64,000 bases of DNA, from the NCBI RefSeq assembly GCF_000316685.1, contig NC_019680.1:869501-933500 (forward strand), read 5' to 3'. Source of the stretch: Synechococcus sp. PCC 6312. Lineage in GTDB: Bacteria; Cyanobacteriota; Cyanobacteriia; Thermosynechococcales; Thermosynechococcaceae. The notes under the pieces were generated by a model. It saw nothing but the letters and a program-made list of their open reading frames with translations, made no database searches and was not told the DNA's origin. This document shows positions 16,676 through 34,401 of the stretch, one piece after another (position 1 is the stretch's first letter; each line of letters opens with the position of its first letter). The position numbers and the translations under genes were made by a program.

Positions 16676-19600
16676 ATGAAAACCATTGGCGACCTGCTGA
16701 CTCGCGACCTCACCCGTAAGATCGAGGAAATCATTCAAGTCGATCAGGCGGATGAGCAATCCGTTTACGCTGAAATCTCTGAGTATGTCGCCACTGATAG
16801 TATTCGTGAGCAATACCACGACTTACTCAAAGCTATGGCGGAGGCTCCGTCTGAACCACACGAAAGTATTGGCGTTTGGATATCTGGCTTCTTTGGTTCT
16901 GGTAAGAGTTCATTCGCTAAAAACCTAGGCTATGCTCTGCAAAACCGTAGTGTTATGAGTCGGAGCTTTGCTGATTTCTTTAAACAGCAGATTGACGACA
17001 ATCGAATAAGCGACCTTCTTGATCTCATCAACGTTAAGACACCCACTGAAGTCATTTTGTTTGAGGTAGCGAAAGAGGTTGATACGCGCAAGGTCACACA
17101 GCGGATTGCCGAGTTGATTTACACAGTTCTACTGCGAGAGCTTAGCTACGCGGAAGATTTCGATGTAGCTGAATTGGAAATAGAGCTTGAGGCTGAGGGA
17201 AAGCTTGATCAATTCATTGAAATTTGCAAGTTGGAATTGAAAAAGGACTGGGAAACAGTGCGTGCCGGTGCACAGAAAATTTCTCGTGCTAGTTTAATCT
17301 TGCACAATCTTGACCCGAAGACATATCCTTCGGCCGACTCTTGGGCACACTCTCAACGTAATCGGGATGCTTCAATCTCTGTCAGCAAGGTTGTGGAGCG
17401 AACCTTCGATCTGTGGGGACGTCGTCGCCCTGGGAAGGGACTGGTATTCATCATTGACGAAGTGGGTCAGCACGTTGCCCGTAGCGGCGACAAGATCGAA
17501 GACCTCCGGGCAACCATCGAAGAGTTCGGCAAGGCTAGCAAGAACTTGCTCAAGGCCCGCAAGATCACGGCTCCTTGCTGGATCGTTGTCACATCTCAAG
17601 AAAAGCTCGATGAAGTCGTTGCTGCCATCGACTCCAAACGGGTCGAATTGGCCAAGCTGCAAGATCGTTTCCGTTACCGGGTAGACCTCGCGCCGTCTGA
17701 CATTCGGGAAGTTGCTACCAAGCGTGTGTTGGCCAAGAAGGCAGAAGCCGAAACCCCACTCAAGGAGTTGTTCAAGAAGAATGAAGGCCAGCTAAACACT
17801 GCATTGCGGTTGGAACGTACCACCCGCCGTACCGACATCAGCGAGAGCGACTTCATTCACTTCTATCCCTATCCGCCGCACTACATCGACCTGTGCATTG
17901 GCATCATGTCGGGCATACGGCTTCAACCAGGTGCGCCTCGTCATTACGGGGGCAGCAACCGCACCATCATCAAGCAGGCTTATGAGATGCTTGTTTCGGA
18001 ACGCACAGCTTTTGCCAATAAGCTCATTGGGGCAATGGTGACGCTGGATAAAGTATTCGAACTGGTAGAAGGCAACCTCTCAAACGAGAAACGCACCGAC
18101 ATCCATCAGATTGCTGAACGATTCAAGAATGAGCCTGAAGACCATGGCTGGGCGCTCCGGGTTTCCAAGGCGATCTGCTTGTTGGAGTTCATTCGCGATC
18201 TCCCACGCACCGAAGCTAATCTCGCCGCCGTGCTGGTGGATGAAGTCGGTAAGGCTACGCCACTCGCTGAGGTTAAAGCTGCGGTACAACGGTTGGAAGC
18301 CGCCAAGTTTATTCGCAATACCGAAGAAGGCTGGAAGCTTCAAACAGCCCAAGAAAAGAACTGGACAAACGAACGCAGCGGTTACCTTGATCCCAAGCCC
18401 CGAGAACGGAACGAACTCACCCGTGCCGCCCTTCAGCAAATCTTCAATGAGCCAGATTTTAAGACCTACCGCTACCAGAACCGCTCTTTTCGCATTGGTA
18501 TCAGTATTGATGGCAGTAGCATCGGAGATGAAGGGGAATTGCTGCTGAGCTTATGTGTTTCCGACGATGCCGACGAACTCACCAATCGCATTGAGCAGAT
18601 TCGTACCGAAAGCCAGCAGAAGTTACACGAGAACGATTTGTACTGGCTGTTTTGCCTCACACCTGAAATTGATGATCTGGTTGCCCAGCTTCATGCATCA
18701 CGAAAGATGGTAGACAAGTACAACCAGTTGAGTGCTCAACAAAAGATCAGCCCCGATGAGGCAACCTGCCTGCAAGATGAAAAGAACTCTAAGGTCATCT
18801 ACGAAAACCGCCTGCGAGACAAGCTTACTCAGGGCATGGAGCGAGGCACTGGCATGTTCCGAGGCGTACAGAATGATGCATCAGCATTGGGCAAATCACT
18901 AGGTGAAATCCTTAAGAAGCTCTTTGGGCAGATTGTGCCGGATTTATATCCCAAGCTACAAATGGGTTCTTCCTCACTCAAGGGCGATGAAGCTGAACAA
19001 ATCCTCAAGACTGCTGATCTAAAGGTGCTACCTAAGGTCTTCTACGAAGGAGAACAGGGGCTGGCTCTGGTGGTGAAGGATGGGGCTAAACTTGTCATCC
19101 ACACCAATGCCGAAGTGTCCAAAGAAGTACTGGACTACCTCAAGAGCGAACATAGCTACGGCAACAAAGACACGCGCATGGGCAAGGCCCTGGAAAAACG
19201 CTTTGGCGGCACGCCTTATGGTTGGGAACGTGACATGCTGCGGTTGGTCCTCGCCACGCTGTTCCGAGCAGGCGAAATTGAAGTCACTTACCAAGGCAAC
19301 CGCTACCACAATTACCAAGACCCAACTTCTCGCACACCTTTTACTAACAACCCGGCATTCCGCACCTCGCTATTTTCGCCTCGGCAATCGGTTGGTCTAA
19401 AGACACTCACACAAGCCGTCCAAAAACTAGAAGACCTAACTGGGGAAGAAGTTGATGTCGAAGAAGGAGCCATCGCCACGGCGTTTAAGAAGGTTGCTGC
19501 CGATGAGCTTGAAAAGCTCCACCCGCTCAAGGCTACTGCCCAGGCTCATCAGTTGCCGATACTAACAATGCTCTCCGAGTACCAGCAAACCTTAGTGGGC

Positions 19601-20341
19601 ATTCAGTCTTCGACATCCGACGATTGTGTTCGCATCCTTACCGAAAATGGAGAAGATTTTGGAGAAACACGGGACAAAGTTCGCAAGTTGCGAGAATCGT
19701 TTGGTACTGAGACTATTGACCTTCTTCGACAAGCTCGACAAGCCACTGAACAAGTCTGGCAGTCCTTATTGACTTACGCTCCTTCCCCGGAACTGGAAAC
19801 TACGGTTGCAGAACTAAAAACGCTGCTGACCTCTGAGCAGTTTATCGACTCATGGGATGAGATCGCAGCCAGTACAGAAATGGTGTTGGATGCCTATCGC
19901 ACCACCTATTGCGAACTATTTGAGCGCCGCAAAAAATCCTACGAATCAGCCATTGACGAGATTCAGAACCGATCCGAATGGGCTCCCCTAAAAGTTAATA
20001 ACCCCGGTATGGCCTCGTCGCTCCTGTCGCAGATGCAAGCACGGGTGGGCTCCGATGAGGACAAAGAAGCCGTCGAGCAAGGGCATTCACTTGGTAAAGC
20101 CAGCCTGTCCCAAATGGAGTCAGACCTCGCCGCTGTTGATGGGTTGAAATCATCGGTACTAGTCAAGTTGCAGGAACTCTCCATTGGCAGCGATAAGAAA
20201 GCCCCCGTGCGAAAGGTGCGGGTATCGGAATTCTTTAATCGGCCCATTCAGACTCAGGATGATCTGAAAACAGCAATAAAACTAATTGAAGAAACACTTC
20301 AAAAGTGCATCGACGAAGGTGCCATCATCATTTTGGAGTGA
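16676..20341 (+). CDS. brxC: BREX ATPase BrxC (PglY-like, DUF499)
   Basis: A 1221-residue ATPase. Walker A is GFFGSGKSS at residues 71-79 and Walker B is LVFIIDEVGQHV near residue 255. The remainder is helical with long charged segments, as in BrxC/PglY. It is thought to power or gate recognition of phage DNA together with PglX. Full length for the family and uninterrupted. It ends 3 bases before the HEPN gene, so the two are probably cotranslated. Confidence 0.95.
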   Translation: MKTIGDLLTRDLTRKIEEIIQVDQADEQSVYAEISEYVATDSIREQYHDLLKAMAEAPSEPHESIGVWISGFFGSGKSSFAKNLGYALQNRSVMSRSFADFFKQQIDDNRISDLLDLINVKTPTEVILFEVAKEVDTRKVTQRIAELIYTVLLRELSYAEDFDVAELEIELEAEGKLDQFIEICKLELKKDWETVRAGAQKISRASLILHNLDPKTYPSADSWAHSQRNRDASISVSKVVERTFDLWGRRRPGKGLVFIIDEVGQHVARSGDKIEDLRATIEEFGKASKNLLKARKITAPCWIVVTSQEKLDEVVAAIDSKRVELAKLQDRFRYRVDLAPSDIREVATKRVLAKKAEAETPLKELFKKNEGQLNTALRLERTTRRTDISESDFIHFYPYPPHYIDLCIGIMSGIRLQPGAPRHYGGSNRTIIKQAYEMLVSERTAFANKLIGAMVTLDKVFELVEGNLSNEKRTDIHQIAERFKNEPEDHGWALRVSKAICLLEFIRDLPRTEANLAAVLVDEVGKATPLAEVKAAVQRLEAAKFIRNTEEGWKLQTAQEKNWTNERSGYLDPKPRERNELTRAALQQIFNEPDFKTYRYQNRSFRIGISIDGSSIGDEGELLLSLCVSDDADELTNRIEQIRTESQQKLHENDLYWLFCLTPEIDDLVAQLHASRKMVDKYNQLSAQQKISPDEATCLQDEKNSKVIYENRLRDKLTQGMERGTGMFRGVQNDASALGKSLGEILKKLFGQIVPDLYPKLQMGSSSLKGDEAEQILKTADLKVLPKVFYEGEQGLALVVKDGAKLVIHTNAEVSKEVLDYLKSEHSYGNKDTRMGKALEKRFGGTPYGWERDMLRLVLATLFRAGEIEVTYQGNRYHNYQDPTSRTPFTNNPAFRTSLFSPRQSVGLKTLTQAVQKLEDLTGEEVDVEEGAIATAFKKVAADELEKLHPLKATAQAHQLPILTMLSEYQQTLVGIQSSTSDDCVRILTENGEDFGETRDKVRKLRESFGTETIDLLRQARQATEQVWQSLLTYAPSPELETTVAELKTLLTSEQFIDSWDEIAASTEMVLDAYRTTYCELFERRKKSYESAIDEIQNRSEWAPLKVNNPGMASSLLSQMQARVGSDEDKEAVEQGHSLGKASLSQMESDLAAVDGLKSSVLVKLQELSIGSDKKAPVRKVRVSEFFNRPIQTQDDLKTAIKLIEETLQKCIDEGAIIILE

Positions 20342-20344
20342 ACG

Positions 20345-21163
20345 ATGCTCAGTCCTCGTCAAATCTTTGAAGACAACATCCGTCCAGCGGACTTACTACT
20401 AAAGGTCTATCGGTTGCTGGAACACGATGCACCTAACACCGAGGAAGGGATGGTTCGGACACTCCGTGATCTGGTCCATGCTGAACATGATGAAGGACTG
20501 ATGGTTATCTACAACGAAGTCTTTTTGGGGCTGATTCGGGAACGGGCTGAAGTTCCACCAGCTTCTATCAAGCGAAGTGCTTTATGCAACCTGCTGCGTC
20601 AATCAGTGGTCACAGCAAGCACTGCCTTGGAGACGTACTTGCCGATCCTCTTGCGGGACAATCTGCCGGAGGTAATTCGGTTACGGGGCAAGGATTTCGT
20701 GCCCAAGAATGATGAAGAAATCAAGAATCAATTCAAGAGCCTCACGTTCGATCTGGGTGATGCGGTTCGGATACTAGCAGACCCAGACCCACTGTTCGTT
20801 GCTAACAAGATGATTAGGAGCCTCAACTTCTCCTACCTCAGTGGCAAGCGGGGTATTCACGTCACGGGAGCGTTGTTAGCCCTCGACAACCCCTGGAGAT
20901 TAATCGCCATGCAACTAGGTCGCGATGAGAGCGAAATCAAGAAGTTCCTTGACTCCACGGTAAAACGCCGGAACGACATCGTACATCGGGCTGACCGCTC
21001 ACAGGATGATCCCAGTGGCTGTGCCCAAGAAATCAGGTATCCGTGGGCCAAGCAAGCAGTTGAAACGATTCGGGTTGTGTGTCTTGCGCTCGATGATTTA
21101 GTGACGAGTCGACTTAAGGAGCTTCAATCTCAAGCAGCGGTGGTGCCGCAGGGAGTGAACTGA
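20345..21163 (+). CDS. HEPN-domain protein embedded in the BREX operon
   Basis: A 272-residue protein not among the six core BREX components. The C-terminal half carries a HEPN-type R-x4-H motif, R209-NDIV-H214, within KFLDSTVKRRNDIVHRADR. An N-terminal helical region (CNLLRQSVVTASTALETYL) precedes it, like the RiboL-PSP-HEPN group of predicted RNases. Gaps of 3 bases to brxC and 1 base to pglX bind it tightly into the operon. It could be an RNA-cleaving effector fired when BREX is overcome, or a structural adaptor; both are inference. The motif itself is clear. Confidence 0.82.
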   Translation: MLSPRQIFEDNIRPADLLLKVYRLLEHDAPNTEEGMVRTLRDLVHAEHDEGLMVIYNEVFLGLIRERAEVPPASIKRSALCNLLRQSVVTASTALETYLPILLRDNLPEVIRLRGKDFVPKNDEEIKNQFKSLTFDLGDAVRILADPDPLFVANKMIRSLNFSYLSGKRGIHVTGALLALDNPWRLIAMQLGRDESEIKKFLDSTVKRRNDIVHRADRSQDDPSGCAQEIRYPWAKQAVETIRVVCLALDDLVTSRLKELQSQAAVVPQGVN

Positions 21164-21164: not shown

Positions 21165-24100
21165 ATGGATCAGGAGATTCGCAATAAGCTTCGTAATGTT
21201 GTAACGAAGTGCCGAAAGCTGCTCGAAGACTCCATTTCACAGGAGCTTGAGGGTAAGTACAACATCTTCGCTAGGAAGGAGAAGGTGACTGCCGACCCAG
21301 ATGCTCCCATGAATCACTTGATGGAAGAGGATCGGGCGGCGCGCAGGGATATTCTCGATCACTTTGCCCACATTAAGGCCCGTGGGTTTAAGCCCAAAGA
21401 TGCCCTTGACCAGTTGATTCGGGAAATTGCCTTCACGCATCTCAATCGGCTTTGTGCCTACAAGATGATGGAGGCGCGTGAGGTCTACGTTGGTGGACAG
21501 AAATTTCGGGAAGCGGTCAGTCGGGGGGTGAACTCTAATGGTGTGAAGTTCTATCTGGCCGAGCATGAGGAGGACGAACGACTCTTTAACACCGGCCATC
21601 AAGATATTGCTTATCGGCACTTCTTGGACTGGCTGGGTGGGGCACTATCCGAAGAGATCGGTGTGTTGTTCAATCCCAACGATCCGGCCAATCGCCTCTA
21701 CCCTCGGCAGAAGACGCTCGATGAAGTTCTCGATTTGCTCAACGGCGGCGGGATCAAGACCGAGGAAACAGAACTCCGGGAGCAATGGCCACAGATTTGG
21801 TCGCAGGACGAAACTATTGGCTGGGTCTACCAGTATTTCACGCCTAAAGAACTCCGGGACAAGGCTCGTAAGGAAAGTCAAGCTCCCCGTAACTCCTACG
21901 AACTGGCCTTTCGCAACCAGTTCTTCACGCCTCGCTATGTGGTCGAGTTCCTCACCGACAACACACTGGGCCGCATTTGGTATGAAATGCGGAAGGGAGA
22001 CACCACGATTAAAGACCAGTGCCGGTATATGGTTCGCCGCCCTACCGAAATTTTTCTGAAGGAAGGCGAGCAGTCGCCCAATAATGCAGCCGAAGGAAAG
22101 GATGATCTTTCCCAGGAAGAACTGCTCAAGCTTCCAGTTCACATTCCGCACCGCCCGAAGAAAGACCCACGGGAACTCAAGATTCTCGACCCAGCCTGTG
22201 GTAGTGGTCACTTCTTGCTGTACTGCTTCGACCTGTTGCTCACGATTTACGAGGAAGCTTATTCCGACCCCGACCTCGGCCCAGCGCTCAAAAAGGACTA
22301 CCCAACGCTCGATGCCCTCAAGCGAGATGTTCCCCGGCTGATCCTCGCCTACAATCTGCACGGCATTGATATTGACTTACGGGCCAGCCAAATTGCGGCC
22401 CTCGCCTTGTGGCTGCGTTGCCAGCGGGCCTATCAAGAGATGGGGCTGAAGAAGGATCGCCCTAAGATCACCCGGTCGAACTTTGTTTGTGCCGAACCAA
22501 TGCCGGGTGAAGAGCCGATGCGCAAGGAGTTCGTTGACCAGCTTGAGCCAAAAGTCCTCGGCCAGGTGGTGGAGGTCGTCTTTGACAAGATGAAGCTGGC
22601 GGGGGAAGCTGGTTCGCTGCTCAAAATCGAGGAGGAGATTCGGGATGCCGTGGCCGCTGCCAAGAAGCAGTATGTCAGAGAGACGACCCAAGCCACGGAT
22701 CGCAAAGGCCAGCCACTTCTGTTTACTCAGGTGGCAATGGATCGCATCACCGGGAAGCCCGATCAACCCTCCCTCTTTGATCTCTCCGACATCACGGACA
22801 ACCAGTTCTTCGAGCAGGCGGAAGGGCGAGTGATCGAAGCACTGCGTTTCTATGCGGAGAAGGCTCAGAATGGTCAACGTCTGCAACGGCGGCTTTTTAC
22901 CGAAGACGCTGTTCGAGGGTTTTCCTTCGTAGACCTTTGCCGAAACCGTTATGACGTAGTGCTGATGAATCCGCCATTTGGAGAATGCTCTCAACTTACC
23001 GCTTCTATCCTTGCTTCATATTACCCGGACTGGAACACCAACCTGCTGTGCGCATTTGTTGCTCGTGCATGGGCAATCACGTGCGGCAACGGATCGGTTG
23101 GGGTAATTTATGACAGAACCGCCGCCATTAAAAGCACCTATGAAGATTTTCGCCGGTGTTCACTCTTGCCCGATAATCGCCTTTTGGCAGTTGCTGATCT
23201 TGGCTGGGGCGTGCTAGATGCGAATGTGGAAGTCACGACCGCTGTACTGCATCGTTCCACGTCCGATCCATCGTGTTTTGTTGACGCAAGGGCCGTAGGT
23301 GTTGAGGAGAAAGGCGGCTTCATTGAGCAGTCTCTTAAGTCAGCCAGCGATGTCCCCACTTCTACATGGGTTCGACCCAAGACCTTCCTGCACTTGCCTA
23401 ATGCCGTGTTGGCTTATGATTTCCCTGAATATCTACGCCGGGCCTTTACGGCATATTCATCATTGGAGAAATCGGGAATCACTGCAGCTCAAGGACACGC
23501 ACTGAAATCAGAAGTCCACTACCGAGCGTTCTGGGAGGTCAGTCCTCTTGAGCCAATTGGCCCAAACCGTCGATGGATCGGTGCATTTAAGGGCGGTGAT
23601 TACAGCCCATTCTTCCTGAAGACGCATCACATTGCGCTATACGGGCGAGACGGATCGCTAGTACCGAAAAGCACTGCAAATGTCTTGCGCAACAAATCGT
23701 TGCACACACTGCCCGGAATCGCTTATGGCAAGCGAGGAGAATACCTCGACTCGCAAGTGTTGCTGGCTGGACAAATCTTTACACACGAAGGACATGCCTT
23801 CCCTAATCTGGGACGCCATGTTGCATGGGCTGCGCTCTGCCTGATGAACTCCCGGCTATTTCAGCATGGGGTCAATTGCTATTGTGGACAGCACAAGCAC
23901 TCAGGTTATGTGAATCTCTTTCCATTCGCTCCGGCCTTGCTCAAGTCTGGCGATGAACTGTCGCACCTTGCGAAGCGAATTTACAGCCTGAAAGAAATGT
24001 GGGCTAGAGGAGACGAGACGCACTTTCTCTTCGTCGCGCCGCACGTCATGCTTTGTGAGCGAACCGACTCTTTCGCCAAGTCAGTCAACAGCATCTTCAA

Positions 24101-25139
24101 TCAATTGGAGGCGTGGGACACAGAGATTCAGGCTGCAGATGCTCGGATAGAAGAGATCGTCTCAGACGCCTACAAGGTCACAGATTCTGACGTGCGAGAA
24201 CTTGTAGCACGAACGGCAAATCGCCCGGTGGATAGGACTGCTTATGACACGTCGATCAGGTCACTGAAAGAGATGGGCATGAGGTTGTCCCTTGAGATGA
24301 CTTCCTATTGCGTTGGAATCGTGTATGGGAGATGGGATGTCCGTTTCGCCATTGGTAGTAAAGTCGCTTGCGTTCCTGAGCCATTTGGGGAGCTTCCTCA
24401 ACATCCGTTAGCAACGCTTTTGGAAGTGAACGAAGTAGGAACAGGTGGCGACTATCCAATTGCTGTGTGTACCAGCGGCATTCTTGTAGACGACCCAGAA
24501 TCTGACAACGACATCGTGACCGCTATCCAGCGGTGCCTAGACGTACTCTTCGATAAAGGGTCAGAAAACGCACTGGAAGAGATGACGCAGCGATTGGGGA
24601 CTGACAGCCTCAGAGACTACTTGCGAAAAGCGCCCACGGGTGGATTCTGGCAGGCTCATGTAGACACATATTCACAAAGTAGCCGCAAGGCGCCGATCTA
24701 CTGGCTACTGCAATCCTCGAAGAAGAACTACGCCATTTGGCTCTACTACCACCGGCTCGACAAAGACCTGCTGTTCAAGGCGCTGGTGAACTACGTCGAG
24801 CCGAAGATTCGCTTGGAAACCAGCCGCCTCGAATCGCTCCAGTCCCAGAAGGCCGCAGCGGGTGACAGCGGCAAAGAGGCCAAGCGACTTGCGAAAGAAG
24901 TCGAAAAGCAGGAAGACTTCCTCTCCGAACTGCAAGACTTCGAGGACAAACTACGGAGGGCGGCGAACCTGCATCTCGAACCTGACCTCAACGATGGCGT
25001 CGTCCTGAACATTGCCCCACTTCACGAACTTGTGCCGTGGAAAGAAGCCAAGAAATACTGGGATGAATTAATGGCAGGCAAATACGAGTGGTCATCCATC
25101 GGCAAGCAACTGCGGGAAAAAGGATTAGTGGAAGGCTAG
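21165..25139 (+). CDS. pglX: BREX adenine methyltransferase PglX
   Basis: A 1324-residue N6-adenine methyltransferase that marks host DNA at a non-palindromic site and guides exclusion of unmodified phage. Motif I is DPACGSGHF (from residue 342) and the catalytic motif NPPF is at residues 602-605. Before these are FRNQFFTPRYVVEFLTDNT and a long N-terminal helical region; after them come the target-recognition regions and a coiled C-terminal segment (SLQSQKAAAGDSGKEAKR). Length matches type 1 PglX. No phase-variable repeat tract is seen. The recognition sequence cannot be read from the protein. Confidence 0.96.
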   Translation: MDQEIRNKLRNVVTKCRKLLEDSISQELEGKYNIFARKEKVTADPDAPMNHLMEEDRAARRDILDHFAHIKARGFKPKDALDQLIREIAFTHLNRLCAYKMMEAREVYVGGQKFREAVSRGVNSNGVKFYLAEHEEDERLFNTGHQDIAYRHFLDWLGGALSEEIGVLFNPNDPANRLYPRQKTLDEVLDLLNGGGIKTEETELREQWPQIWSQDETIGWVYQYFTPKELRDKARKESQAPRNSYELAFRNQFFTPRYVVEFLTDNTLGRIWYEMRKGDTTIKDQCRYMVRRPTEIFLKEGEQSPNNAAEGKDDLSQEELLKLPVHIPHRPKKDPRELKILDPACGSGHFLLYCFDLLLTIYEEAYSDPDLGPALKKDYPTLDALKRDVPRLILAYNLHGIDIDLRASQIAALALWLRCQRAYQEMGLKKDRPKITRSNFVCAEPMPGEEPMRKEFVDQLEPKVLGQVVEVVFDKMKLAGEAGSLLKIEEEIRDAVAAAKKQYVRETTQATDRKGQPLLFTQVAMDRITGKPDQPSLFDLSDITDNQFFEQAEGRVIEALRFYAEKAQNGQRLQRRLFTEDAVRGFSFVDLCRNRYDVVLMNPPFGECSQLTASILASYYPDWNTNLLCAFVARAWAITCGNGSVGVIYDRTAAIKSTYEDFRRCSLLPDNRLLAVADLGWGVLDANVEVTTAVLHRSTSDPSCFVDARAVGVEEKGGFIEQSLKSASDVPTSTWVRPKTFLHLPNAVLAYDFPEYLRRAFTAYSSLEKSGITAAQGHALKSEVHYRAFWEVSPLEPIGPNRRWIGAFKGGDYSPFFLKTHHIALYGRDGSLVPKSTANVLRNKSLHTLPGIAYGKRGEYLDSQVLLAGQIFTHEGHAFPNLGRHVAWAALCLMNSRLFQHGVNCYCGQHKHSGYVNLFPFAPALLKSGDELSHLAKRIYSLKEMWARGDETHFLFVAPHVMLCERTDSFAKSVNSIFNQLEAWDTEIQAADARIEEIVSDAYKVTDSDVRELVARTANRPVDRTAYDTSIRSLKEMGMRLSLEMTSYCVGIVYGRWDVRFAIGSKVACVPEPFGELPQHPLATLLEVNEVGTGGDYPIAVCTSGILVDDPESDNDIVTAIQRCLDVLFDKGSENALEEMTQRLGTDSLRDYLRKAPTGGFWQAHVDTYSQSSRKAPIYWLLQSSKKNYAIWLYYHRLDKDLLFKALVNYVEPKIRLETSRLESLQSQKAAAGDSGKEAKRLAKEVEKQEDFLSELQDFEDKLRRAANLHLEPDLNDGVVLNIAPLHELVPWKEAKKYWDELMAGKYEWSSIGKQLREKGLVEG

Positions 25140-25187
25140 AGCCTTTGGGCAGGTTTCTCAGAGCTATAGCCGTCAAGTTGTTGCTGG

Positions 25188-25223
25188 ACTTTCCTAAAAT
25201 ATGCTATTTTCCTGATCAGGAAA
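25188..25223. promoter_or_regulatory. Palindromic operator in front of the AbiEi-like gene
   Basis: A perfect 16-bp palindrome TTTCCTGATCAGGAAA lies at 25208-25223, and a further half-site ACTTTCCT at 25188-25195. Its right arm (AGGAAAG) doubles as the ribosome site of the ATG at 25227. AbiEi antitoxins are known to repress their own promoters through inverted repeats, so this is a likely autoregulatory operator inside the BREX operon. Confidence 0.65.
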
Positions 25224-25226
25224 GTT

Positions 25227-26333
25227 ATGAAAAATAGGAAACCACCCTCTAAGAATGAAGTCATACGCTGGCTGAAAGACGACCAGCTTAGCCTACCCCC
25301 GCTTAGTTTTAAACTTCGGGAAGTGAAGCCAACATACTTGAGCGGTCAGGGGTGGGACTTTGAGATTGAGACTCGATGGGATGATCAAATTGTCAGCTTC
25401 GCTGTAGGGTACAAGCCCCTGTTCACTCCCAAGGCTTTTTACGCAGCCCTTATTCTATGCCGCATCGGTATGTCAAAGCTTCCCAAAAATTGCTATCCGC
25501 TTGTCATGCTGCCTTTCTTAAGCGCATCACACCTTGAGGAACTAGAAGCCAGTGGAATCAGTGGTGTGGATTGGTGCGGGAACGGCGTGGTGATCGTGCC
25601 GAACAAATTCTGCGTCTTTCGCAGCGGTGCCTCGAATCAGTTTGCCACCTCGTCACCAATCAAAAACATCTACCGTAAGAACACATCAATGGTGGCCCGA
25701 GTGTTTTTGGTGCTGCCTAAATTTAACGATCTCAATGCTATCGAGGCTGAAGTAAATCGTCGTGATGTTTTAGCTCAGTTTGCCGGGAAAACCCCAGTGA
25801 GGATGGGAACCATTTCCAAAGCCCTCAAACAACTTGAAGAGGACTTGATCATTGAGCGCGGACAAAATACCCGACTCCTTCAAGCCGATAAGTTACTTGA
25901 CCTGCTCCAACAAAACTACGAACCGCCAAAATCTCAGCCGATACGCCTCAAGGTTGACTGTGCATTTGACCAGTTACCGCAATTAATCAGTGCAAAAGTC
26001 GAAATGAAAGCAGGGCCATGGGTCGCGACTGGTCTGTCGTCAGTCTCCCGCTATGCGTCAATGCAGCGAGAGGAAATCCTGAGCCTTTACTGTCCAGACG
26101 CAAGGCGTATCCAATCCCTCTTGAATGGTCGAGAAACTGACCGCTTTCCCAACGTGAAGCTCATTGAAACCACTGATCAACCACTGTACTTCGATGCCCG
26201 TCCAAAGGATGGATTCTATTGGGCATCACCTGTGCAAACTTGGTTGGAATTGATGCATGGGGACAAACGGGATCGCGAGACTGCCGATCAAGTTAGAAGT
26301 TACATTCTCCGCCATACCCGGGAGAGTCAATGA
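25227..26333 (+). CDS. AbiEi-like antitoxin/transcriptional regulator within BREX
   Basis: A 368-residue protein. A winged-helix segment is visible around residues 185-215 (RMGTISKALKQLEEDLIIERG). The C-terminal part has WVATGLSSVSRYASM and ends in FYWASPVQTWLELMHGDKR, the arrangement of the AbiEi antitoxin C-terminal domain. It overlaps the next gene by 4 bases (ATGA), as AbiEi-AbiEii pairs do. It is preceded by 87 bp containing a palindromic operator, the only sizeable gap in the BREX operon. Likely jobs are to repress its promoter and neutralise the nucleotidyltransferase. Family assignment is by architecture and partner. Confidence 0.72.
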   Translation: MKNRKPPSKNEVIRWLKDDQLSLPPLSFKLREVKPTYLSGQGWDFEIETRWDDQIVSFAVGYKPLFTPKAFYAALILCRIGMSKLPKNCYPLVMLPFLSASHLEELEASGISGVDWCGNGVVIVPNKFCVFRSGASNQFATSSPIKNIYRKNTSMVARVFLVLPKFNDLNAIEAEVNRRDVLAQFAGKTPVRMGTISKALKQLEEDLIIERGQNTRLLQADKLLDLLQQNYEPPKSQPIRLKVDCAFDQLPQLISAKVEMKAGPWVATGLSSVSRYASMQREEILSLYCPDARRIQSLLNGRETDRFPNVKLIETTDQPLYFDARPKDGFYWASPVQTWLELMHGDKRDRETADQVRSYILRHTRESQ

Positions 26334-27220
26334 TGAACACAATGCCCACTCTTCACACGGCGCTGCTTGATCTGCTCTTTGAGATACGGAACGAGAACCT
26401 ATCGCTTATTATCGGGGGTGGCTATGGGATTTACTTAAAACAGCAACACATCCGAAAACTTGGAATGCGAACACTGTTAACAGAGTGGCCCGAAGCGCGT
26501 TCCACTAACGACCTTGATCTCTTCCTGCGCCCTGAGTTACTCATTGACTCTGCAAAGTTGAAGCCTTTGTCGAAGACGCTTCGCCGTTTGGGATATCAGG
26601 TCATTCCAGGAGCAGAAAAATACCAGTTTGCAAGGCCTGGCCCGGATGGTGGCCCAGAGGGAAGTCTAAAAATCGACCTACTGACTGGGCCACAAAGCCG
26701 ATTTCAGAATACTACTGTGCAGGTGAATAACCGTCGGGTACGCCCGAATCCGTCAATCGATCTCCATGCCCATCCGGTCGATGAAGCCTTCACACTAGAG
26801 GATGATCTGTTGCCGATCACGATTGATGGAACAACCAGCAACGGTTCACCATTTGAAGCGGAAGTCTACCTCCCGCATCCGTTGACCTTCACTATGATGA
26901 AACTGTTTGCCTTTCGGGATCGGATTGACGACATGAATAAAGAGTTCGGCAGCTACCATGCACTGGATATCTATACGATCCTGGCACTGACTAGCGAGGA
27001 GGAATGGCTTCGCGCCTGCCAACTCCGAGAACTACATCAAAATAATGGGTATATCTTGGAAGCGGCTCAAATTACGAAGCAATATTTCTCAACGTTGAGC
27101 AGTAAAGGAATGCTCCGTATGCGTGAAAGCCCATACTGTCGCCCAGAACTCCAACTCAACGACTTCTGCAACGTACTGTGTGAGCTTTTTCCAGAGCACT
27201 TAATGGTGGAGGCTCGTTAA
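26330..27220 (+). CDS. AbiEii-like nucleotidyltransferase toxin within BREX
   Basis: A 296-residue nucleotidyltransferase of the AbiEii/AbiGii type. The N-terminal motif is IIGGGYGIYLK (residues 27-37), followed by the metal-binding STNDLDLFL with D61 and D63, and a third acidic strand LKIDLLTG. The conserved FTMMKLFAFRDR helix follows. AbiEii proteins act as GTP-using toxins in type IV toxin-antitoxin systems. The stop overlaps the pglZ start by one base (TAATG), so pglZ translation is probably coupled to it. Its presence between pglX and pglZ is not part of the standard type 1 operon. Confidence 0.8.
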   Translation: MMNTMPTLHTALLDLLFEIRNENLSLIIGGGYGIYLKQQHIRKLGMRTLLTEWPEARSTNDLDLFLRPELLIDSAKLKPLSKTLRRLGYQVIPGAEKYQFARPGPDGGPEGSLKIDLLTGPQSRFQNTTVQVNNRRVRPNPSIDLHAHPVDEAFTLEDDLLPITIDGTTSNGSPFEAEVYLPHPLTFTMMKLFAFRDRIDDMNKEFGSYHALDIYTILALTSEEEWLRACQLRELHQNNGYILEAAQITKQYFSTLSSKGMLRMRESPYCRPELQLNDFCNVLCELFPEHLMVEAR

Positions 27221-29811
27221 TGGTGGGAGTTGTCAGTGACTATCTGGTGCAATTGATCACCAAGCAGGTTGATGAAAAGGGTCTAGTTGTCTGGTATGAC
27301 CCGGAGCAAGCTTATGAATCGGTTGCGGTAGAACTCTCACTCCCCAATACCACTGTGGCTCTCTTCGAGGGTAGCTTCTTCAAATTACGCGAGGACATTG
27401 ATCACTTGCTCAACGATAACCATCCCCCACGTCTGGTCGTGTATGTGCCAATGGATCGAATGGAGACACATCATGCATTGATTGAACTTGATTGTGCTGG
27501 TGTCATTATGCAACCCAAACAACAACCTCCATCATGCAATACCCGTTTGTCAGTCGTGGCCCGAAACGCTCTGAAGCCTATTCTGGGAGATGAACAGGTT
27601 TCTGAAATCGAACACCAAGTGGAGGCAGGAAAGCTATCCTTAGATGATCTCAACTCCTTAGCAGATAAAGGTAAGGATATTTCAACGGGTATCCTAACCC
27701 TGATTTTCGGTACAGCAAACCCCCAAGAAGTAGCTTTAGACTTTTTGCATAGTGATCGGCATGATAACAATGTGGTCAAGAAAGCTGCTGAACAGGAATT
27801 ACAACATCTCTTTCAAGTTAGTTTTGACGTTGAATTATCTGCTAGTCAGTCCTTAGCAAGTTGGCGAAAAAAGTTGGGACAATATATATTGTTGACTGAT
27901 TTGTTTGCCAGCCTCAAGCAATTACCCTCATCTCTTGCTTCAGTTCCCATTGCCAATACGAAAAGCAGCATCGATGCTTGTGTACGGTTGACACAAACAT
28001 GGCGGAACAGCCGAAACATGCGAGACAGCTATGTCACTGTATCTAAGCAGATTGAGAAGGAGCTAGCCCTCAATCAACTACAACTTCCAGTCGAGTCTCT
28101 CCAGGAAAATGAAACCTTCTTGTGTGTTGAACTTGCATTGCTGGAGTATGTCGAAAGTGAATTGATCAAGGCTGCAAATTTAGCTTTAGTCGAACTTGCC
28201 AAGTATCGACTATCCAGTTTCTGGTCTAACGTGATACCCGAGATTCAAGCTCGGTGGGCACTTATCTTATCTGCGGCTGAAGTCTTAATTGAAGCTGATC
28301 GGGTGGGTCGGGCTATTAAGAAAGCGCCAAGTTCGGTTTTGGATCTAGTTAAATCCTACTCTGATGACGATGAACCTTGGTGTGCATTAGATACCCACCA
28401 TCGACACATGGAGAGTCGGAAGTATAACTTTGAGTTTGCCGGTAGCAACGATCACGAGTGTTTAGAAAAGCTGCTCATTAGGGCAGAACAACGTTACACC
28501 GAAGTTGGCTCAGAATTAGCTAAACACTTTATCACCCACTACCAACAAGCAGAACATCCCATCAAAGGATTATTGCAGCAGAGAGAAGTTTTTAAGAAAA
28601 GAGTCAAACCTCATCTTAGTGATGGCAAGGTAGCCTACCTATGGGTTGATGCATTGCGTTTCGAGATGGCCAGTGAGCTATGTCGAGTACTTAAAGAAGA
28701 CTTCACTTTCGAGATCCAGCCAGCCATTGCTATGATGCCAACCATCACCGAGATTGGAATGGCAGCTTTATTACCAAATGCTGATGAATCAGCCAAAGTC
28801 GTATCAGTGGGAGGGGGCAAGCTTGGGCTGGAGATCGCAGGCAAAGTAATTAAAGATCGCAAGGATCGAATCAAATTTCTAAGAGAGCAAGCTGGTGTAT
28901 CCGTCTTCGATGCCAAGCTAGATGATCTTCTTCCTAAACCGACTAAGAAAGTGAGAGACAGTATTCAAAATGCCGAATTGATCCTGATAACCTCTCAGGA
29001 AATTGATGAACTGGGCGAGCAGGACAACATCTCACAAGCTCGTCTTCAAATTGATGGTGTGTTAAGCCAACTGCGTCGGGGAATACGGTTGCTAGCCGAC
29101 CTCGGCATAAAAACCATTGTGCTCACAGCAGATCACGGACACATATTTGCGGATGAACTTGGGGAAGATATGAAAATCGAGGCTCCAGGGGGCGAAGTAA
29201 AAGACCTCCACCGCCGAGTGTGGGTTGGGCTGGGAGGGACATCAGAGCTCTCCTATCTTCGGACTTCTTTAGCCTCTCTGGGAGTAGACAGCGAATTCGA
29301 CATCGCAACTCCGTGGACATTTGCTTGTTTCAAGTCAAAAGGAGGCGGGCGGGCCTATTTCCACGGCGGGTTATCTCCCCAAGAACTGATTGTTCCTGTT
29401 GTGGTTCTGAATTCGATAGTAAAACCCCAACTCCAATCAACAGGCGTGCAGTGGATACTAACCCCCGGTACACCAAAGTTAACGACACGATTTTTCTCCG
29501 TTCAGATATCTGGGATACAGAGTGAGCTAAGTTTGTTTGGATTTACCCCACCCAACGTAAAGCTTGAATTACGTGCCAATAAGAAATGTGTCTCATGCCC
29601 TGTTAGTGCCTCCTATGGATTTGAAGATGCCACAGGCGAAGTGAAGCTAAAGATTGCAGATCATGACAACAAACAAATTGAGCCGAATACAATCACACTA
29701 ATGTTATTGGAAGAGATTTCTCAGAAGACAGTAGGGGTCTACTTGCTAGATGCTACATCAGGAGTAGAATTGGCAGAACCCCTGACGATAGACGTTGCTA
29801 TTTCAATGTGA
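27220..29811 (+). CDS. pglZ: BREX phosphatase-fold protein PglZ
   Basis: An 863-residue protein with the PglZ alkaline-phosphatase-like domain in its second half. Metal-binding residues are seen in YLWVDALRFEMASEL (D477) and TADHGHIF (from residue 637), preceded by the MMPTITEIGMAALL loop. PglZ is the marker gene of all BREX types and is needed for methylation and exclusion. Start overlaps the AbiEii-like gene by one base; brxL follows after 9 bases. Its codon 1 context suggests dependence on upstream translation. Confidence 0.94.
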   Translation: MVGVVSDYLVQLITKQVDEKGLVVWYDPEQAYESVAVELSLPNTTVALFEGSFFKLREDIDHLLNDNHPPRLVVYVPMDRMETHHALIELDCAGVIMQPKQQPPSCNTRLSVVARNALKPILGDEQVSEIEHQVEAGKLSLDDLNSLADKGKDISTGILTLIFGTANPQEVALDFLHSDRHDNNVVKKAAEQELQHLFQVSFDVELSASQSLASWRKKLGQYILLTDLFASLKQLPSSLASVPIANTKSSIDACVRLTQTWRNSRNMRDSYVTVSKQIEKELALNQLQLPVESLQENETFLCVELALLEYVESELIKAANLALVELAKYRLSSFWSNVIPEIQARWALILSAAEVLIEADRVGRAIKKAPSSVLDLVKSYSDDDEPWCALDTHHRHMESRKYNFEFAGSNDHECLEKLLIRAEQRYTEVGSELAKHFITHYQQAEHPIKGLLQQREVFKKRVKPHLSDGKVAYLWVDALRFEMASELCRVLKEDFTFEIQPAIAMMPTITEIGMAALLPNADESAKVVSVGGGKLGLEIAGKVIKDRKDRIKFLREQAGVSVFDAKLDDLLPKPTKKVRDSIQNAELILITSQEIDELGEQDNISQARLQIDGVLSQLRRGIRLLADLGIKTIVLTADHGHIFADELGEDMKIEAPGGEVKDLHRRVWVGLGGTSELSYLRTSLASLGVDSEFDIATPWTFACFKSKGGGRAYFHGGLSPQELIVPVVVLNSIVKPQLQSTGVQWILTPGTPKLTTRFFSVQISGIQSELSLFGFTPPNVKLELRANKKCVSCPVSASYGFEDATGEVKLKIADHDNKQIEPNTITLMLLEEISQKTVGVYLLDATSGVELAEPLTIDVAISM

Positions 29812-29820: not shown

Positions 29821-31848
29821 GTGTCTGAGCTAGATCGTAAAGTAGCATCTGTATTTGCAGGCAAGGTAGTTCGCAAGGACTTGGTTCGTAAGGTAAAAGT
29901 CGGAGCAAATATCCCTGTCTTTGTACTTGAGTATTTGCTGGGAAAATATTGCGCTACGGATGACCCTGTAGCGATTGAAGCCGGGTTAAAAGTTGTGAAT
30001 AACACTTTATCATCTAACTTTGTCCGACCCGATGAATCTAACAAAGCACAATCGATGGTCAAAGATAAGGGAAGATATACCTTAATCGATAAAGTGCAGG
30101 TACGTTACCTCTCTGAAGATGACAAACATTGGGCTGAACTGAAGAACTTTGGCCATAAGTTCGTCCATATCCCTGAACATTACTTGCGGGACTACGACCG
30201 CTTACTGATGGGGGGAGTTTGGGCACAACTGGATATTCGGCACCAGTACGACGAGGAGCAAAAGGGCAAACGCAGCCCCTTTTGGATTGACAACCTCAAG
30301 CCGATTCAACTAGCCACATTTGATCTTGATGATTACCGTTCTTGCAGAGCAGAGTTCACCTCTGAAGAGTGGATTGACCTTCTGCTTCGTAGTATTGGAC
30401 TGGAGCCGTCGCACTTTGATAAACGGAGTAAGCTACTATTCCTTGCAAGGTTAATACCTTTATGCGAGCAGAATTTTAACCTAGTAGAACTGGGCCCCCG
30501 AGGAACGGGCAAAAGTTATGGGTATCAGGAATTGACTCCTTACTCCATTCTTCTTACTGGCCCTACAACAGCGGCTAACCTCTTCTACAACATAGCTAGT
30601 GGCAAGATGGGTCTAGTTGGTATTTGGGATGCGGTAGCTTTTGACGAGGTGGCTGATCTACAAAAAATGCCTAAAGAAGTGGTTACCACATTGAAGACCT
30701 ACTGCGAGTCTGGCACTTTTGCCCGTGGCAAAGATTCGCTTTCAGGTATGGCATCGATAGCAATGTTTGGTAACACTAATCAACCCGTCGATGTCATGGT
30801 TCGGTCATCACACCTGTTTATGCCAATGCCCGAAGTAATCAGGGAAGATATGGCATTCCTCGACCGCATTCACTTCTACATTCCGGGTTGGGAACTCCCA
30901 AAAATGCGCATGGAGTTCTTCACAAATAGCTATGGCTTTGTAGTCGATTATTTAGCAGAGGCCTTAAGGGAACTCCGCAAGCACAATTTTACCGAGATAA
31001 TCGACCGCTATTTTTCACTTGGATCCCACTTAAATGCTCGAGATGTCAAAGCGGTACGAAAATCAGTATCAGGGTTAATTAAGTTGATTTATCCCCACGG
31101 AGAAGTGCCCAAGAGTGAGCTAGGCGAACTTCTGGAATTAGCAATTGAAGGTCGACGACGAGTGAAAGAACAACTTAAAAAAATGGGTTCATTTGAGTAC
31201 CACCAAACATCCTTCTCTTATATAAATGGAGAAACCTGTGAGGAGCGATTTGTTGGGGTTCCTGAACAGGGGGGGCGGGATATGATTGCTACTGATCCGC
31301 TCGCGCCTGGCTCCGTCTATACTGCTTCCGTTGATGACCAAGGTAAGGTGGGACTATACCGCTTTGAAGTTGGCTGCTCTCCTGGAACGGGGAAGTTAAA
31401 GCTGTCAGGAGGGATAGAAGGTTTGATGAAAGAATCTCTCCAGAGAGCTTTTGCCTACTTACAAAGCCAGAAAGGAAAGATAGGCATCGGGCAGCAGTTT
31501 GATACTACTGATTTTTATGTTGAAGCCATAGATCTATTAAGCAACCATATTCCCTGTGAAGCAGGAATTGCTTTGGTGGTGGCAATCTATTCGGCCCTCA
31601 AAAAGCAATCAGTCTTGGCGAGTCTAGTCGTTCTTGGTGACTTGAGCATTCAAGGAAATATTAAAGCAGTACGAACACTTGTCGAACCATTACAGGTAAG
31701 CATGGATAATGGGGCGCGTCGAGCATTAGTTCCCCTTGAGAATAAGCGTAATTTTCTAGAAGTAGCCGGTGAGATTATGGAGAGGGTTGACCCAATATTT
31801 TTCTCAGATCCGATGACCGCAGCTATGAAAGCTTTAGGGATGAGCTAA
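29821..31848 (+). CDS. brxL: BREX Lon-like AAA+ protein BrxL
   Basis: A 675-residue AAA+ protein starting at GTG 29821 behind TGAGGAT. Walker A is GPRGTGKS (residues 225-232) and the C-terminal Lon-like protease domain region includes GEVPKSELGELLEL and VVLGDLSIQGNIKAVRTLVEP. BrxL forms DNA-binding oligomers needed for phage exclusion in type 1 systems. It completes the six-gene core set. Its stop lies about 45 bp from a cut-off integrase fragment, the right end of the island. Confidence 0.94.
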   Translation: MSELDRKVASVFAGKVVRKDLVRKVKVGANIPVFVLEYLLGKYCATDDPVAIEAGLKVVNNTLSSNFVRPDESNKAQSMVKDKGRYTLIDKVQVRYLSEDDKHWAELKNFGHKFVHIPEHYLRDYDRLLMGGVWAQLDIRHQYDEEQKGKRSPFWIDNLKPIQLATFDLDDYRSCRAEFTSEEWIDLLLRSIGLEPSHFDKRSKLLFLARLIPLCEQNFNLVELGPRGTGKSYGYQELTPYSILLTGPTTAANLFYNIASGKMGLVGIWDAVAFDEVADLQKMPKEVVTTLKTYCESGTFARGKDSLSGMASIAMFGNTNQPVDVMVRSSHLFMPMPEVIREDMAFLDRIHFYIPGWELPKMRMEFFTNSYGFVVDYLAEALRELRKHNFTEIIDRYFSLGSHLNARDVKAVRKSVSGLIKLIYPHGEVPKSELGELLELAIEGRRRVKEQLKKMGSFEYHQTSFSYINGETCEERFVGVPEQGGRDMIATDPLAPGSVYTASVDDQGKVGLYRFEVGCSPGTGKLKLSGGIEGLMKESLQRAFAYLQSQKGKIGIGQQFDTTDFYVEAIDLLSNHIPCEAGIALVVAIYSALKKQSVLASLVVLGDLSIQGNIKAVRTLVEPLQVSMDNGARRALVPLENKRNFLEVAGEIMERVDPIFFSDPMTAAMKALGMS

Positions 31849-32143: not shown

Positions 32144-32208
32144 TTATCCTTGATCGGAAAATAGGACTAAGTTGTTCAGTGGTTGTCGTCACCCGCAACC
32201 ATCACGGT

Positions 32209-34401
32209 ATGGCCTCCCCAACAGTCGAAGAAATCCAAGGCACAGTAGAGCGAGTTACCTTTCACTCACCGGATAGTGGGTACACCATAGCTCGGCTCGA
32301 TGTGAAGGGGTATCAAGAGCTAGTCACTATCATTGGCAGCTTTCCACAACTTCAGGCAGGAACCACCATCCGACTCTGGGGGCAGTGGCGAGAGTATCCC
32401 AAGTACGGCTCCCAACTCCAGGTGCAACGATATGAAGAACTGAAGCCCGCCACCCTCAACGGCATCGAAAAATATTTGGGCAGTGGCTTGATTAAGGGAG
32501 TTGGACAGAAAACCGCTCGCAAAATCGTCAACCACTTCGGGCTAGAAACCCTAGAAATCATTGAAAGTCAAGTTGACCGATTAATTGAAGTCCCTGGCCT
32601 GGGTGAAAGACGGGTCAAGCAAATCCAAGGGGCCTGGAATGACCAGCGGACAATTCGAGATGTCATGGTTTTCTTACAGGGCCATGGGGTGAGTCCCACC
32701 CATGCCGTCAAAATCTTCAAGCAGTATGGGGAGCAGTCAGTCACGGTCGTCACTGACAACCCCTATCGGCTGGCGACCGACATCTACGGCATTGGCTTTG
32801 TCACCGCTGATGCCATTGCCCGCAAGATTGGGATTACCCCGAACAGCGAGTATCGCTACCAGGCCGGGATTCGTCATGTCTTAGATACGGCGGGAGAAGA
32901 CGGGCATTGCTTCTTACCCCTCAGCCAACTTGTCAGCACCGTGATTGAACGCCTCACCCTGGATGACCACGTTCCTAAGGCAGACCAGGTTGAATTTCTG
33001 CTCAATGAAATGGTCAGAGGGAAACAGATCATGCGAGCCGAGGTGAACGGAGAAGGAGTCTATTATGCGCCCCCCTTCTACCGAGCCGAGATGGGATTAG
33101 CCAAAGCGATTCAAGCCTTGACTGCCAGCAGCGTCAGTGTGGATATGGAACGAGTCGATAACTGGCTGAGGCGATACAGCGAGCGGGTGGGACTGCCCCT
33201 GGCCCCGAAGCAACTCGAAGCGGTGCGCCAAGCCGTGAGTCAACGACTACTTATCCTCACAGGTGGGCCAGGCACAGGTAAAACCTTCACCACCCGCACG
33301 ATTGCCACCCTCTGGCGGGCCATGGGCAAAAAGGTATTACTCGCTTCCCCCACGGGACGGGCCGCCCAACGTCTGAGTGAAGTCACCGGACAAGAGGCGA
33401 TTACGTTGCACCGGCTCCTAGAGTTTTCGCCCAAGAGCATGCAGTTCCAACGGAATGAGGATAACCCCTTAGAGGCTGATGCCGTCATTGTGGATGAGGT
33501 CTCGATGTTAGACCTGTTCTTGGCCTACAGCTTGATGCGAGCCATTCCCTTAACAGTCCAAGTCCTTCTAGTTGGGGATGCAGACCAACTACCCAGCGTG
33601 GGAGCAGGAGCCGTCTTACGAGATTTGATTAACTCTCAAGCCGTACCAGTCGTCCGACTGACTGAAGTCTTCCGTCAGGCCCAGACCAGTGCCATTGTCA
33701 CGGAAGCCCACCGGATCAACCAGGGGCAGTATCCTAAGCTGGAGCCGATGTCAGATACGCCAGAGTCAGACTGCCTGTGGCATGGGGCAGAAGAAGCCGA
33801 GCAAGGCGTGATTGCCATCACCAGCATCGTCTCGGAGTTTATCCCCACCCTGGGCTTTGACCCCAGACGAGATGTGCAAGTTCTCTGCCCAATGACCCGC
33901 AGTGTTGTGGGTACTCGCAACCTCAATGCTGTACTTCAGTCGGTGCTGAACCCGTCAGACCTAACGAAGCCTGCACTTCAACGGGGCGGGCAAATCTTAC
34001 GGGTTGGCGACCGAGTCTTGCAGCGAGTGAATGACTATGACCGTGACGTATTCAACGGCGACCTGGGCTGGATTGAGGCGATTGACCCGGAGGAACAAGA
34101 AACCACCGTCTGCTTTGGTAATCGTTCTGTCACCTATGACTGGGCAGACCTCGATGAAATTACCTTGGCCTGGCCCTGCACGATCCACAAGTCCCAAGGG
34201 AGTGAGTTTCCGGTTGTGATTCTGCCGATGTATATGCAGCACTATCTGATGCTCTCCCGCAACTTGCTTTACACAGGACTGACCAGGGCCAGGAAGCTGG
34301 CGATCTTAGTTGGCCCCAAAAAAGCAATCGGGCTGGCAGTCCGAGAAACGAAAGACAAGCTCCGGTTTACTCGCCTCAAGGAATTACTGATAACACCTTA
34401 A
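32209..34401 (+). CDS. recD2: RecD2-like superfamily 1 DNA helicase
   Basis: A 730-residue RecD2 (RecD/TraA family) 5'-3' helicase. The N-terminal OB-like region (VEEIQGTVERVTFHSPDSGY) precedes helix-hairpin-helix repeats (LIKGVGQKTARKIV; VPGLGERRVKQIQ). The helicase core follows, with Walker A LTGGPGTGKTFTT from residue 350, DEVSMLD and GDADQLPSVG, and ends in LTRARKLAILVG. I use the ATG at 32209; a GTG at 32179 is possible. It contains a few GGCCTGG heptamers, unlike the BREX genes, so it probably belongs to a different, older segment. Confidence 0.92.
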   Translation: MASPTVEEIQGTVERVTFHSPDSGYTIARLDVKGYQELVTIIGSFPQLQAGTTIRLWGQWREYPKYGSQLQVQRYEELKPATLNGIEKYLGSGLIKGVGQKTARKIVNHFGLETLEIIESQVDRLIEVPGLGERRVKQIQGAWNDQRTIRDVMVFLQGHGVSPTHAVKIFKQYGEQSVTVVTDNPYRLATDIYGIGFVTADAIARKIGITPNSEYRYQAGIRHVLDTAGEDGHCFLPLSQLVSTVIERLTLDDHVPKADQVEFLLNEMVRGKQIMRAEVNGEGVYYAPPFYRAEMGLAKAIQALTASSVSVDMERVDNWLRRYSERVGLPLAPKQLEAVRQAVSQRLLILTGGPGTGKTFTTRTIATLWRAMGKKVLLASPTGRAAQRLSEVTGQEAITLHRLLEFSPKSMQFQRNEDNPLEADAVIVDEVSMLDLFLAYSLMRAIPLTVQVLLVGDADQLPSVGAGAVLRDLINSQAVPVVRLTEVFRQAQTSAIVTEAHRINQGQYPKLEPMSDTPESDCLWHGAEEAEQGVIAITSIVSEFIPTLGFDPRRDVQVLCPMTRSVVGTRNLNAVLQSVLNPSDLTKPALQRGGQILRVGDRVLQRVNDYDRDVFNGDLGWIEAIDPEEQETTVCFGNRSVTYDWADLDEITLAWPCTIHKSQGSEFPVVILPMYMQHYLMLSRNLLYTGLTRARKLAILVGPKKAIGLAVRETKDKLRFTRLKELLITP

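Follow-up and report, generated by a model that had tools for sequence, protein, structure and literature searches.

What controls the second half of a Type 1 BREX (bacteriophage exclusion) operon that carries a toxin-antitoxin-like gene pair in its middle? The question is raised by a 64,000-nucleotide (nt) stretch of Synechococcus sp. PCC 6312 (NC_019680.1, assembly GCF_000316685.1, positions 869,501 to 933,500), referred to here in its entirety as the window and counted from its first letter. In it, the genes brxA, brxB, brxC, a HEPN-domain gene, pglX, an AbiEi-like gene, an AbiEii-like gene, pglZ and brxL follow one another in this order. The original prediction held that a palindrome over the ribosome site of the AbiEi-like gene is an operator through which the AbiEi-like protein could gate pglZ and brxL. 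We describe this site as a conserved element of four half-sites. In the reading that we favor, with a probability of roughly 80%, the pair would regulate itself through this element, with pglZ and brxL as at least partial passengers.

The four-half-site element and its conservation

The element consists of TTTCCT-N12-TTTCCT-N4-AGGAAA-N12-AGGAAA at 25190-25241. It occupies part of the 87-nt gap between pglX and the AbiEi-like gene, together with the first codons of the latter, and overlaps the gene start, its ribosome site and a promoter-like sequence that is conserved as well. Its parts are the following:

25181-25186, + strand: TTGCTG, a −35-like hexamer of putative promoter function; its TTG columns are kept in 28-31 of 33 sequences per base in the dyad-anchored alignment
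25190-25195, + strand: half-site 1, TTTCCT, between the −35 and −10 hexamers, at a distance of 18 nt from half-site 2, with a mean pairwise identity of 0.94
25205-25210, + strand: TATTTT, a −10-like hexamer overlapping half-site 2; columns kept in 31-33 of 33 sequences per base
25208-25213, + strand: half-site 2, TTTCCT, from the exact sequence and the alignment
25208-25223, no strand: inner perfect 16-bp palindrome, TTTCCTGATCAGGAAA, centered at 25215/25216; the exact sequence is single-copy in its own genome
25218-25223, + strand: half-site 3, AGGAAA, from the exact sequence and the alignment, doubling as the probable ribosome-binding site
25236-25241, + strand: half-site 4, AGGAAA, 18 nt from half-site 3 and within the AbiEi-like coding sequence (codons Arg-Lys)

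The palindrome and the extra half-site (half-site 1) of the original prediction are both exact. The palindrome overlaps the Shine-Dalgarno-like AGGA ahead of the ATG at 25227. The fourth half-site, inside the AbiEi-like gene, mirrors half-site 1 and was absent from that prediction. Around half-sites 1 and 2, the arrangement TTGNNN-17-TATTTT is conserved; in the window the spacer is 18 bp, with TTG one base further upstream. A transcript starting about 7 nt 3′ of the −10 hexamer would fall near the dyad center. As in autoregulatory operators, the dyad lies over the putative promoter region and is kept with the gene.

A palindrome alone is weak evidence, because about 1.05 perfect palindromes of at least 16 bp are expected by chance per 64 kb (20 Markov simulations); the window holds three (at 25208, 36208 and 36577). 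The probability of finding one in a 90-bp stretch of local composition is 0.0019. Meanwhile, the four-part element matches at every one of its 24 set positions, and the best score among 20,000 Markov-simulated 120-nt regions was 19. This result, along with the fixed spacing across 33 loci, the codon bias and the single site per genome described below, led us to reject the idea that the palindrome is a chance match, or merely a ribosome site next to a promoter, which we consider practically negligible.

The relatives come from a species-genome collection scanned with the AbiEi-like protein, which yielded 36 loci. The search was unbiased toward the operator, because its peptide patterns exclude the N-terminal end of the protein. 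The record titles of these loci name Planctomycetes, delta-proteobacterial groups, Spirochaetales, Acidobacteria, Fibrobacteres, Opitutales, Lentisphaerae and others, and the family proteins are 43-65% identical to that of the window (21 relatives). The window and 32 of the 36 relatives were aligned as DNA anchored on the inner dyad, leaving out L030, which begins at a contig end, and the partial matches L040, L041 and L042. These 33 loci do not amount to 33 independent cases, since L008 and L009 come from one metagenome-assembled genome (MAG) and L018 and L021 are near-copies.

Outer spacings of 8-25 nt (left) and 8-29 nt (right) were searched, and a spacing of 18 nt was best or tied best in 33/33 sequences on the left and 32/33 on the right. 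On the left it was the sole best in 31/33 (L023 and L026 tie with 19), and on the right in 29/33 (ties with 19 in L024 and L034 and with 11 in L038). In L029 the right spacing is better at 9, with CAGAAA, a 4/6 match, at 18. All six outer half-site bases match at this spacing in 27 (left) and 29 (right) of the 33 sequences, and the central C or G of each half-site (positions −23, −5, +5 and +23) is invariant in 33/33. Mean pairwise identity reaches 0.88-0.95 within the half-sites, compared to 0.50-0.62 in the center and spacers and about 0.25 upstream of −46.

The coding end of the element provided further insight into what is being conserved. In most genes half-site 4 codes for Arg-Lys close to the N terminus, a dipeptide found within the first 7 codons of 24 of the 27 genes tested (27 of the 33 loci were used). 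In all 24 of these genes the Arg codon at half-site 4 is AGG, versus 13.5% AGG among their other Arg codons (naive log10 P = −22, ignoring relatedness). The ATG lies 6, 9 or 12 nt past the start of half-site 3 depending on the locus, with codons lost accordingly, while half-site 4 is fixed. Five of the 33 loci have no in-frame ATG ahead of half-site 4, three of them with an in-frame TTG upstream. Because the start codon shifts while half-site 4 stays put, even out of frame in L028, we conclude that the constraint acts on the DNA.

Searches with the four-half-site pattern pointed to a single target. At up to 1 mismatch, the genome of Synechococcus sp. PCC 6312 has one site, and the other 385 genomes of the phylum sample have none. 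At up to 2 mismatches, one site was found in each of 18 of the 19 related genomes searched (those of 19 of the 36 loci), and two in the genome of L038, where a second, slightly degenerate operator lies just behind the toxin gene (about 4339-4400). The element is unique within the window, and no such operator stands ahead of brxA. Since there is one site per genome in nearly all pair-carrying genomes searched, and none before brxA, the expected target is the AbiE-like pair plus whatever shares its transcript. As a separate observation, the pattern (with Y/R allowed at one base per half-site) also occurs in nine viral-contig stretches (L043-L051), some of which are near-copies, with 0 matches in a backwards control. 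One example is L046 (4016-4067); the sites of L043 and L047 lie inside reading frames. No AbiEi-like match was found in the nine stretches, nor in 8 of the records when searched whole, and it is possible that they are decoys or the operator of another regulator.

The AbiE-like pair and its proteins

The gene order brxA-brxB-brxC-pglX-pglZ-brxL of Type 1 BREX is intact in the window, with the HEPN gene and the AbiE-like pair inside it:

15282-20341, + strand: brxA, brxB and brxC; no second four-half-site operator lies anywhere in the window
20345-21163, + strand: HEPN-domain gene (HEPN_RiboL-PSP) between brxC and pglX; PF18735, E 7e-7
21165-25139, + strand: pglX, the last BREX gene ahead of the internal operator; NF033452, E 1.2e-186
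25227-26333, + strand: AbiEi-like gene, 368 aa, with a restriction-endonuclease-like N domain, a CRP-like winged helix (about 150-230) and a C-terminal domain
26330-27220, + strand: AbiEii-like gene, 296 aa, a nucleotidyltransferase-fold toxin candidate; model pLDDT (predicted local distance difference test) 92.2, PADLOC AbiEii E 0.0043
27220-29811, + strand: pglZ, its start overlapping the abiEii stop; PF08665, E 1.1e-20
29821-31848, + strand: brxL; PF13337, E 1.2e-131

According to the open reading frame (ORF) list, the spacing between these genes is small or negative, except for the 87 nt ahead of the AbiEi-like gene, which is the sole gap above 20 nt from brxA to brxL; a gap of 330 nt follows brxL. 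The original prediction was thus accurate in placing the only sizeable gap of the operon here, as well as in the coupled junctions that it described, ATGA between abiEi and abiEii (26330-26333) and TAATG between abiEii and pglZ (at 27220). Among the 33 antitoxin stops considered (the window plus L007-L038), an ATGA/GTGA overlap between antitoxin and toxin was found at 25, and the stop of L007 is TAATG. Outside the operon, a RecD2-like helicase gene lies 330 nt 3′ of brxL (32179-34401), and a long palindrome with a ATTGCGGTTAACCGCAAT core occurs twice (36208-36227 and 36577-36594), flanking a 101-aa reading frame. A relative of the HEPN gene (73%) follows brxC in G062, and none was matched in G044 and G088, two further genomes described below.

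The model of the AbiEi-like protein is of middling confidence (pLDDT 75.6). Its N domain is predicted to resemble restriction endonucleases (Pyrococcus repair endonuclease, Z 9.0 over 87 residues; EndoMS, Z 8.4), and residues 148-231 resemble a CRP-like winged helix at a modest Z of 5.2. HTH_Crp_2 was found in 20/22 family members at E 0.5 or better, the window protein matching at E 0.0058, under the cut-off. AbiEi_2 matched weakly in 15/22 (best E 0.00027), and no AbiEi model matched the window protein at E 0.5 or better. A putative ExK/R motif, possibly of nuclease type, is present in 18 of 21 readable family rows; the window and L007 have VGYK in its place, and L018 has IKCK. Foldseek returned no match to this model at E 0.001, and a search of solved structures by sequence returned no relatives.

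As for the putative toxin, AbiEii was matched in 5/22 family members (best E 0.0016), and the window protein matched NTP_transf_8 only (E 0.022, under the cut-off). Its model best matched MenT1 (8an5_A; Z 11.9, root-mean-square deviation 3.7, 182 residues aligned), with MenT3 (6y5u; Z 10.0, deviation 4.8, 229 aligned) among the top rows; identity to both is 10-16% in the fold alignments. The AbiEi of Streptococcus agalactiae (6y8q_A, Z 7.2) appears among the matches of the toxin model and is not among the 50 listed for the antitoxin model, which is no evidence of a different fold. Because neither window protein reaches a curated Pfam cut-off, we name them AbiE-like and assign no family membership. 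An AbiEi-like match was found in 1 of 388 sampled genomes, the own one. Protein relatives were absent from plasmids and viral contigs, and a DNA search of E. coli in near mode found none. In L007, a second, partial AbiEi-like reading frame (15449-15823) is 73% identical to the window protein.

Comparison with described systems is consistent with autoregulation. The AbiEi of S. agalactiae has been shown by experiment to repress its own promoter via the inverted repeats IR1 and IR2 (PMC3985639, PMC7319586). Both this type IV system and the pair described here have the antitoxin gene first and the nucleotidyltransferase toxin second, a winged-helix antitoxin, and inverted repeats over the promoter. 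They differ in the operator, which in S. agalactiae is made of two repeats, TGTTGCTTTTA-N27-TAAAAGCAACA, and here of four 6-bp half-sites at ±5 and ±23, the last of them in the gene. The winged helix also differs, being N-terminal in S. agalactiae, whereas here it lies mid-protein behind the restriction-endonuclease-like domain. Our toxin model is also like the MenT1 and MenT3 of the MenAT systems of Mycobacterium tuberculosis, where Rv2827c has four promoter repeats as well (PMC7319586, PMC11375011). Those repeats are of 23 bp and upstream of the start codon, whereas here half-site 4 lies in the gene.

The pglX-pglZ junction

BREX genes or their pieces stand beside the pair in 5 of the 36 loci: pglZ pieces only in L013 and L033, and pglX plus pglZ pieces in L017, L020 and L027. 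No BREX gene was found beside the pair in the other 31; some links have possibly been missed, since flanks of 1.5 kb or more upstream and of about 1 kb downstream are available for 21 of the 36 loci, and are short in 15. Candidate BREX neighbors were rejected in L025 (a Lon protease), L010 (an MgsA-type ATPase) and L015 (three upstream ORFs without a Pfam match at E 0.01), and a 15-residue piece resembling the pglX end in L021 (E 0.57) was not counted. Because the element is native to the pair, and mostly occurs without adjacent BREX, the operator of the pair need not have arisen as a BREX switch. Where the two are linked, the distance from toxin stop to pglZ start is −1 to +16 nt in 6/6 loci (the window and the five others), the pglZ start being degenerate in L033. 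In that locus (9843-12120), the operator is preceded by one pglZ start, and a second, degenerate one follows the toxin gene directly. As regards a single origin of the linkage, the tree needs 4 changes, at least 3 of which are forced by supported branches (24 of 500 shuffles are as low; the bootstrap is unsettled). The linkage may have been gained repeatedly, or may be old and followed by losses. A WYL+WCX-domain gene, a regulator type found with defense systems, ends just upstream of the AbiEi-like gene in L034 (8684-9946).

The closest BREX relatives in our samples, G044, G088 and G062 (PglZ 70, 70 and 49% identical), gave no AbiEi-like match. In G044, the space between pglX and pglZ is taken up by two Phd/YefM-PIN pairs (PF02604 and PF01850, each above its cut-off), with a second copy of the pglX 3′ end between the pairs. 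G088 resembles it by eye and has the same duplicated pglX end, and in G062 a Phd-like start is readable by eye beside masked letters. The window is similar in DNA to G044 and G088 up to about 25129 and again from about 27229, which makes the whole cassette the differing part. Since these three genomes belong to one genus, the Phd/PIN occupancy counts as one or two events. The pglX-pglZ junction of L074 and L077, both on the reverse strand, carries two copies of the pglX 3′ end, the second flanked by Phd/PIN-type pairs on either side; this doubling suggests that modules may have entered by recombination at the pglX end. Also retrieved, each with 1.5 kb on either side, were eight pglZ loci at a greater distance (L066-L073; identity 24-29%).

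In the StySA BREX of Salmonella Typhimurium, an accessory two-gene insert occupies the same junction and is apparently transcribed together with pglZ, and most likely brxL, as a separate unit (PMC9009780). That insert encodes an ATPase and a DUF4435 protein, whereas here the insert is a toxin-antitoxin-like pair with a dyad operator. HEPN and PIN RNases have been named as BREX backup effectors in a study whose main text does not mention AbiE (PMC12839542). Among the titles and abstract openings listed in our search of open-licence PubMed Central (PMC), where 16 papers contain both BREX and AbiEii, none deals with an AbiE-like or Phd/PIN pair at this junction; we make no firm claim that an AbiE-like pair in BREX is unpublished.

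Probable autoregulation and its possible reach into pglZ and brxL

Based on these findings, we postulate that the element is very probably the autoregulatory operator of the pair and most likely has this type IV-like pair, found outside BREX as well, as its single target. Antitoxin units would bind the inner palindrome and the outer half-sites at ±23. The bound protein would extend from the spacer between the −35 and −10 hexamers, over the −10 hexamer and the probable start of transcription, to the ribosome site and the first codons, shutting the cassette's own promoter. When the antitoxin falls, the promoter would open and refill the pair. As no gap separates the toxin gene from pglZ, transcripts from the internal promoter should continue into pglZ and probably brxL, and the antitoxin level would also tune the share of PglZ and BrxL that comes from this promoter. 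The original prediction therefore stands as regards a conserved operator-promoter-like element tied to the AbiEi-like gene, with and without BREX. Its gating of pglZ and brxL is plausible, as suggested by the tight toxin-pglZ junction and the shared transcript in Salmonella, while a physiologically important effect on these two genes falls a little short of even odds.

Several observations weigh against this view. A consensus promoter scan of the window lists nothing at 25181-25210, and its promoter-like sites are at background level in any case (19 vs 17.4 in shuffles). It does list a terminator-like stem inside abiEi (26198-26212), such sites also being at background (12 vs 16.4). The anatomy of the element fits a repressor or an activator alike, and the two proteins fall short of the Pfam cut-offs, as mentioned above. 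Because 35 of the 36 loci are titled MAG, binning errors are possible. In the five other linked loci BREX is broken, in pieces or cut by a contig end, so that pair and BREX are both intact only in the window. Finally, the BREX of Acinetobacter is a single long transcript from one start (PMC9122589), and if the same holds here an internal promoter may matter little. BrxR, a WYL regulator of BREX, is likewise a winged-helix protein encoded in the BREX operon with a palindromic site over a promoter, but it stands at the operon head, whereas here the site is internal and the protein a putative antitoxin (PMC9122589).

In a narrower account, the cassette is self-contained: the operator controls the pair only, pglZ and brxL depend on the long transcript from brxA, the internal promoter contributes nothing of importance to BREX, and BREX hosts the pair as an addiction or backup module. 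Single-transcript BREX exists, the same operator is found in relatives without an adjacent BREX gene (31 of the 36 loci lack one, with short flanks in 15 of the 36), and in L017, L020 and L033 the pair stays open despite BREX damage or a contig end. This account must contend with the toxin-pglZ junction of −1 to +16 nt in all six linked loci, and with the window, where, from 26213 up to the pglZ start, the consensus scan lists neither a promoter-like nor a terminator-like site on the + strand. It also has to contend with the second, pglZ-side transcripts of Salmonella (PMC9009780) and of B. cereus, where BREX is told to consist of two operons parting at the same place (PMC9122589). We rate it just under an even chance.

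A different possibility is that the element acts as RNA, its dyad hairpin hiding the ribosome site so that read-through BREX mRNA makes no AbiEi or AbiEii and, via coupling, less PglZ. Read-through RNA does fold into nested stems pairing half-site 3 (window −15.6 kcal/mol, z −2.74; z −3.0 in L017 and −5.65 in L032, the three loci folded). In addition, a hint of coupling is seen at the ±4 pair alone, where the C-A combination occurs in 0 of 10 C-bearing loci, compared to 10 of 23 for T-bearing ones (Fisher p 0.015; 7 of 500 shuffles as high). Yet any DNA dyad can fold as RNA, and RNA begun near the center cannot fold in this way (−1.6 kcal/mol). Furthermore, pairing at spacer positions ±12 to ±20 does not exceed that in shuffles, although the outer half-sites are nearly invariant. 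We regard this explanation as improbable. Such a hairpin may coexist with the DNA operator, which we take as primary, with translational shielding of read-through mRNA as a possible second effect.

A broader and more tentative proposal is that autoregulated toxin-antitoxin or similar effector modules dock at the pglX-pglZ junction of Type 1 BREX, where their repressor and operator come to control the PglZ-BrxL half. Such modules would include the AbiE/MenT-like pairs of the window and of several phyla, the Phd/PIN-type pairs of related BREX operons and the ATPase-DUF4435 pair of Salmonella; we consider this proposal, modules included, unlikely. Were it true, loss of a labile antitoxin would free the toxin and raise PglZ and BrxL at once, and the PglZ-BrxL half would be inducible while brxABC and pglX keep their own promoter. 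These findings provide an exactly defined operator for a toxin-antitoxin-like family whose members in the window reach no curated cut-off, and its half-site pattern can serve as a search handle for this AbiE-like family. They also offer a concrete route by which toxin-antitoxin control might be wired into BREX.

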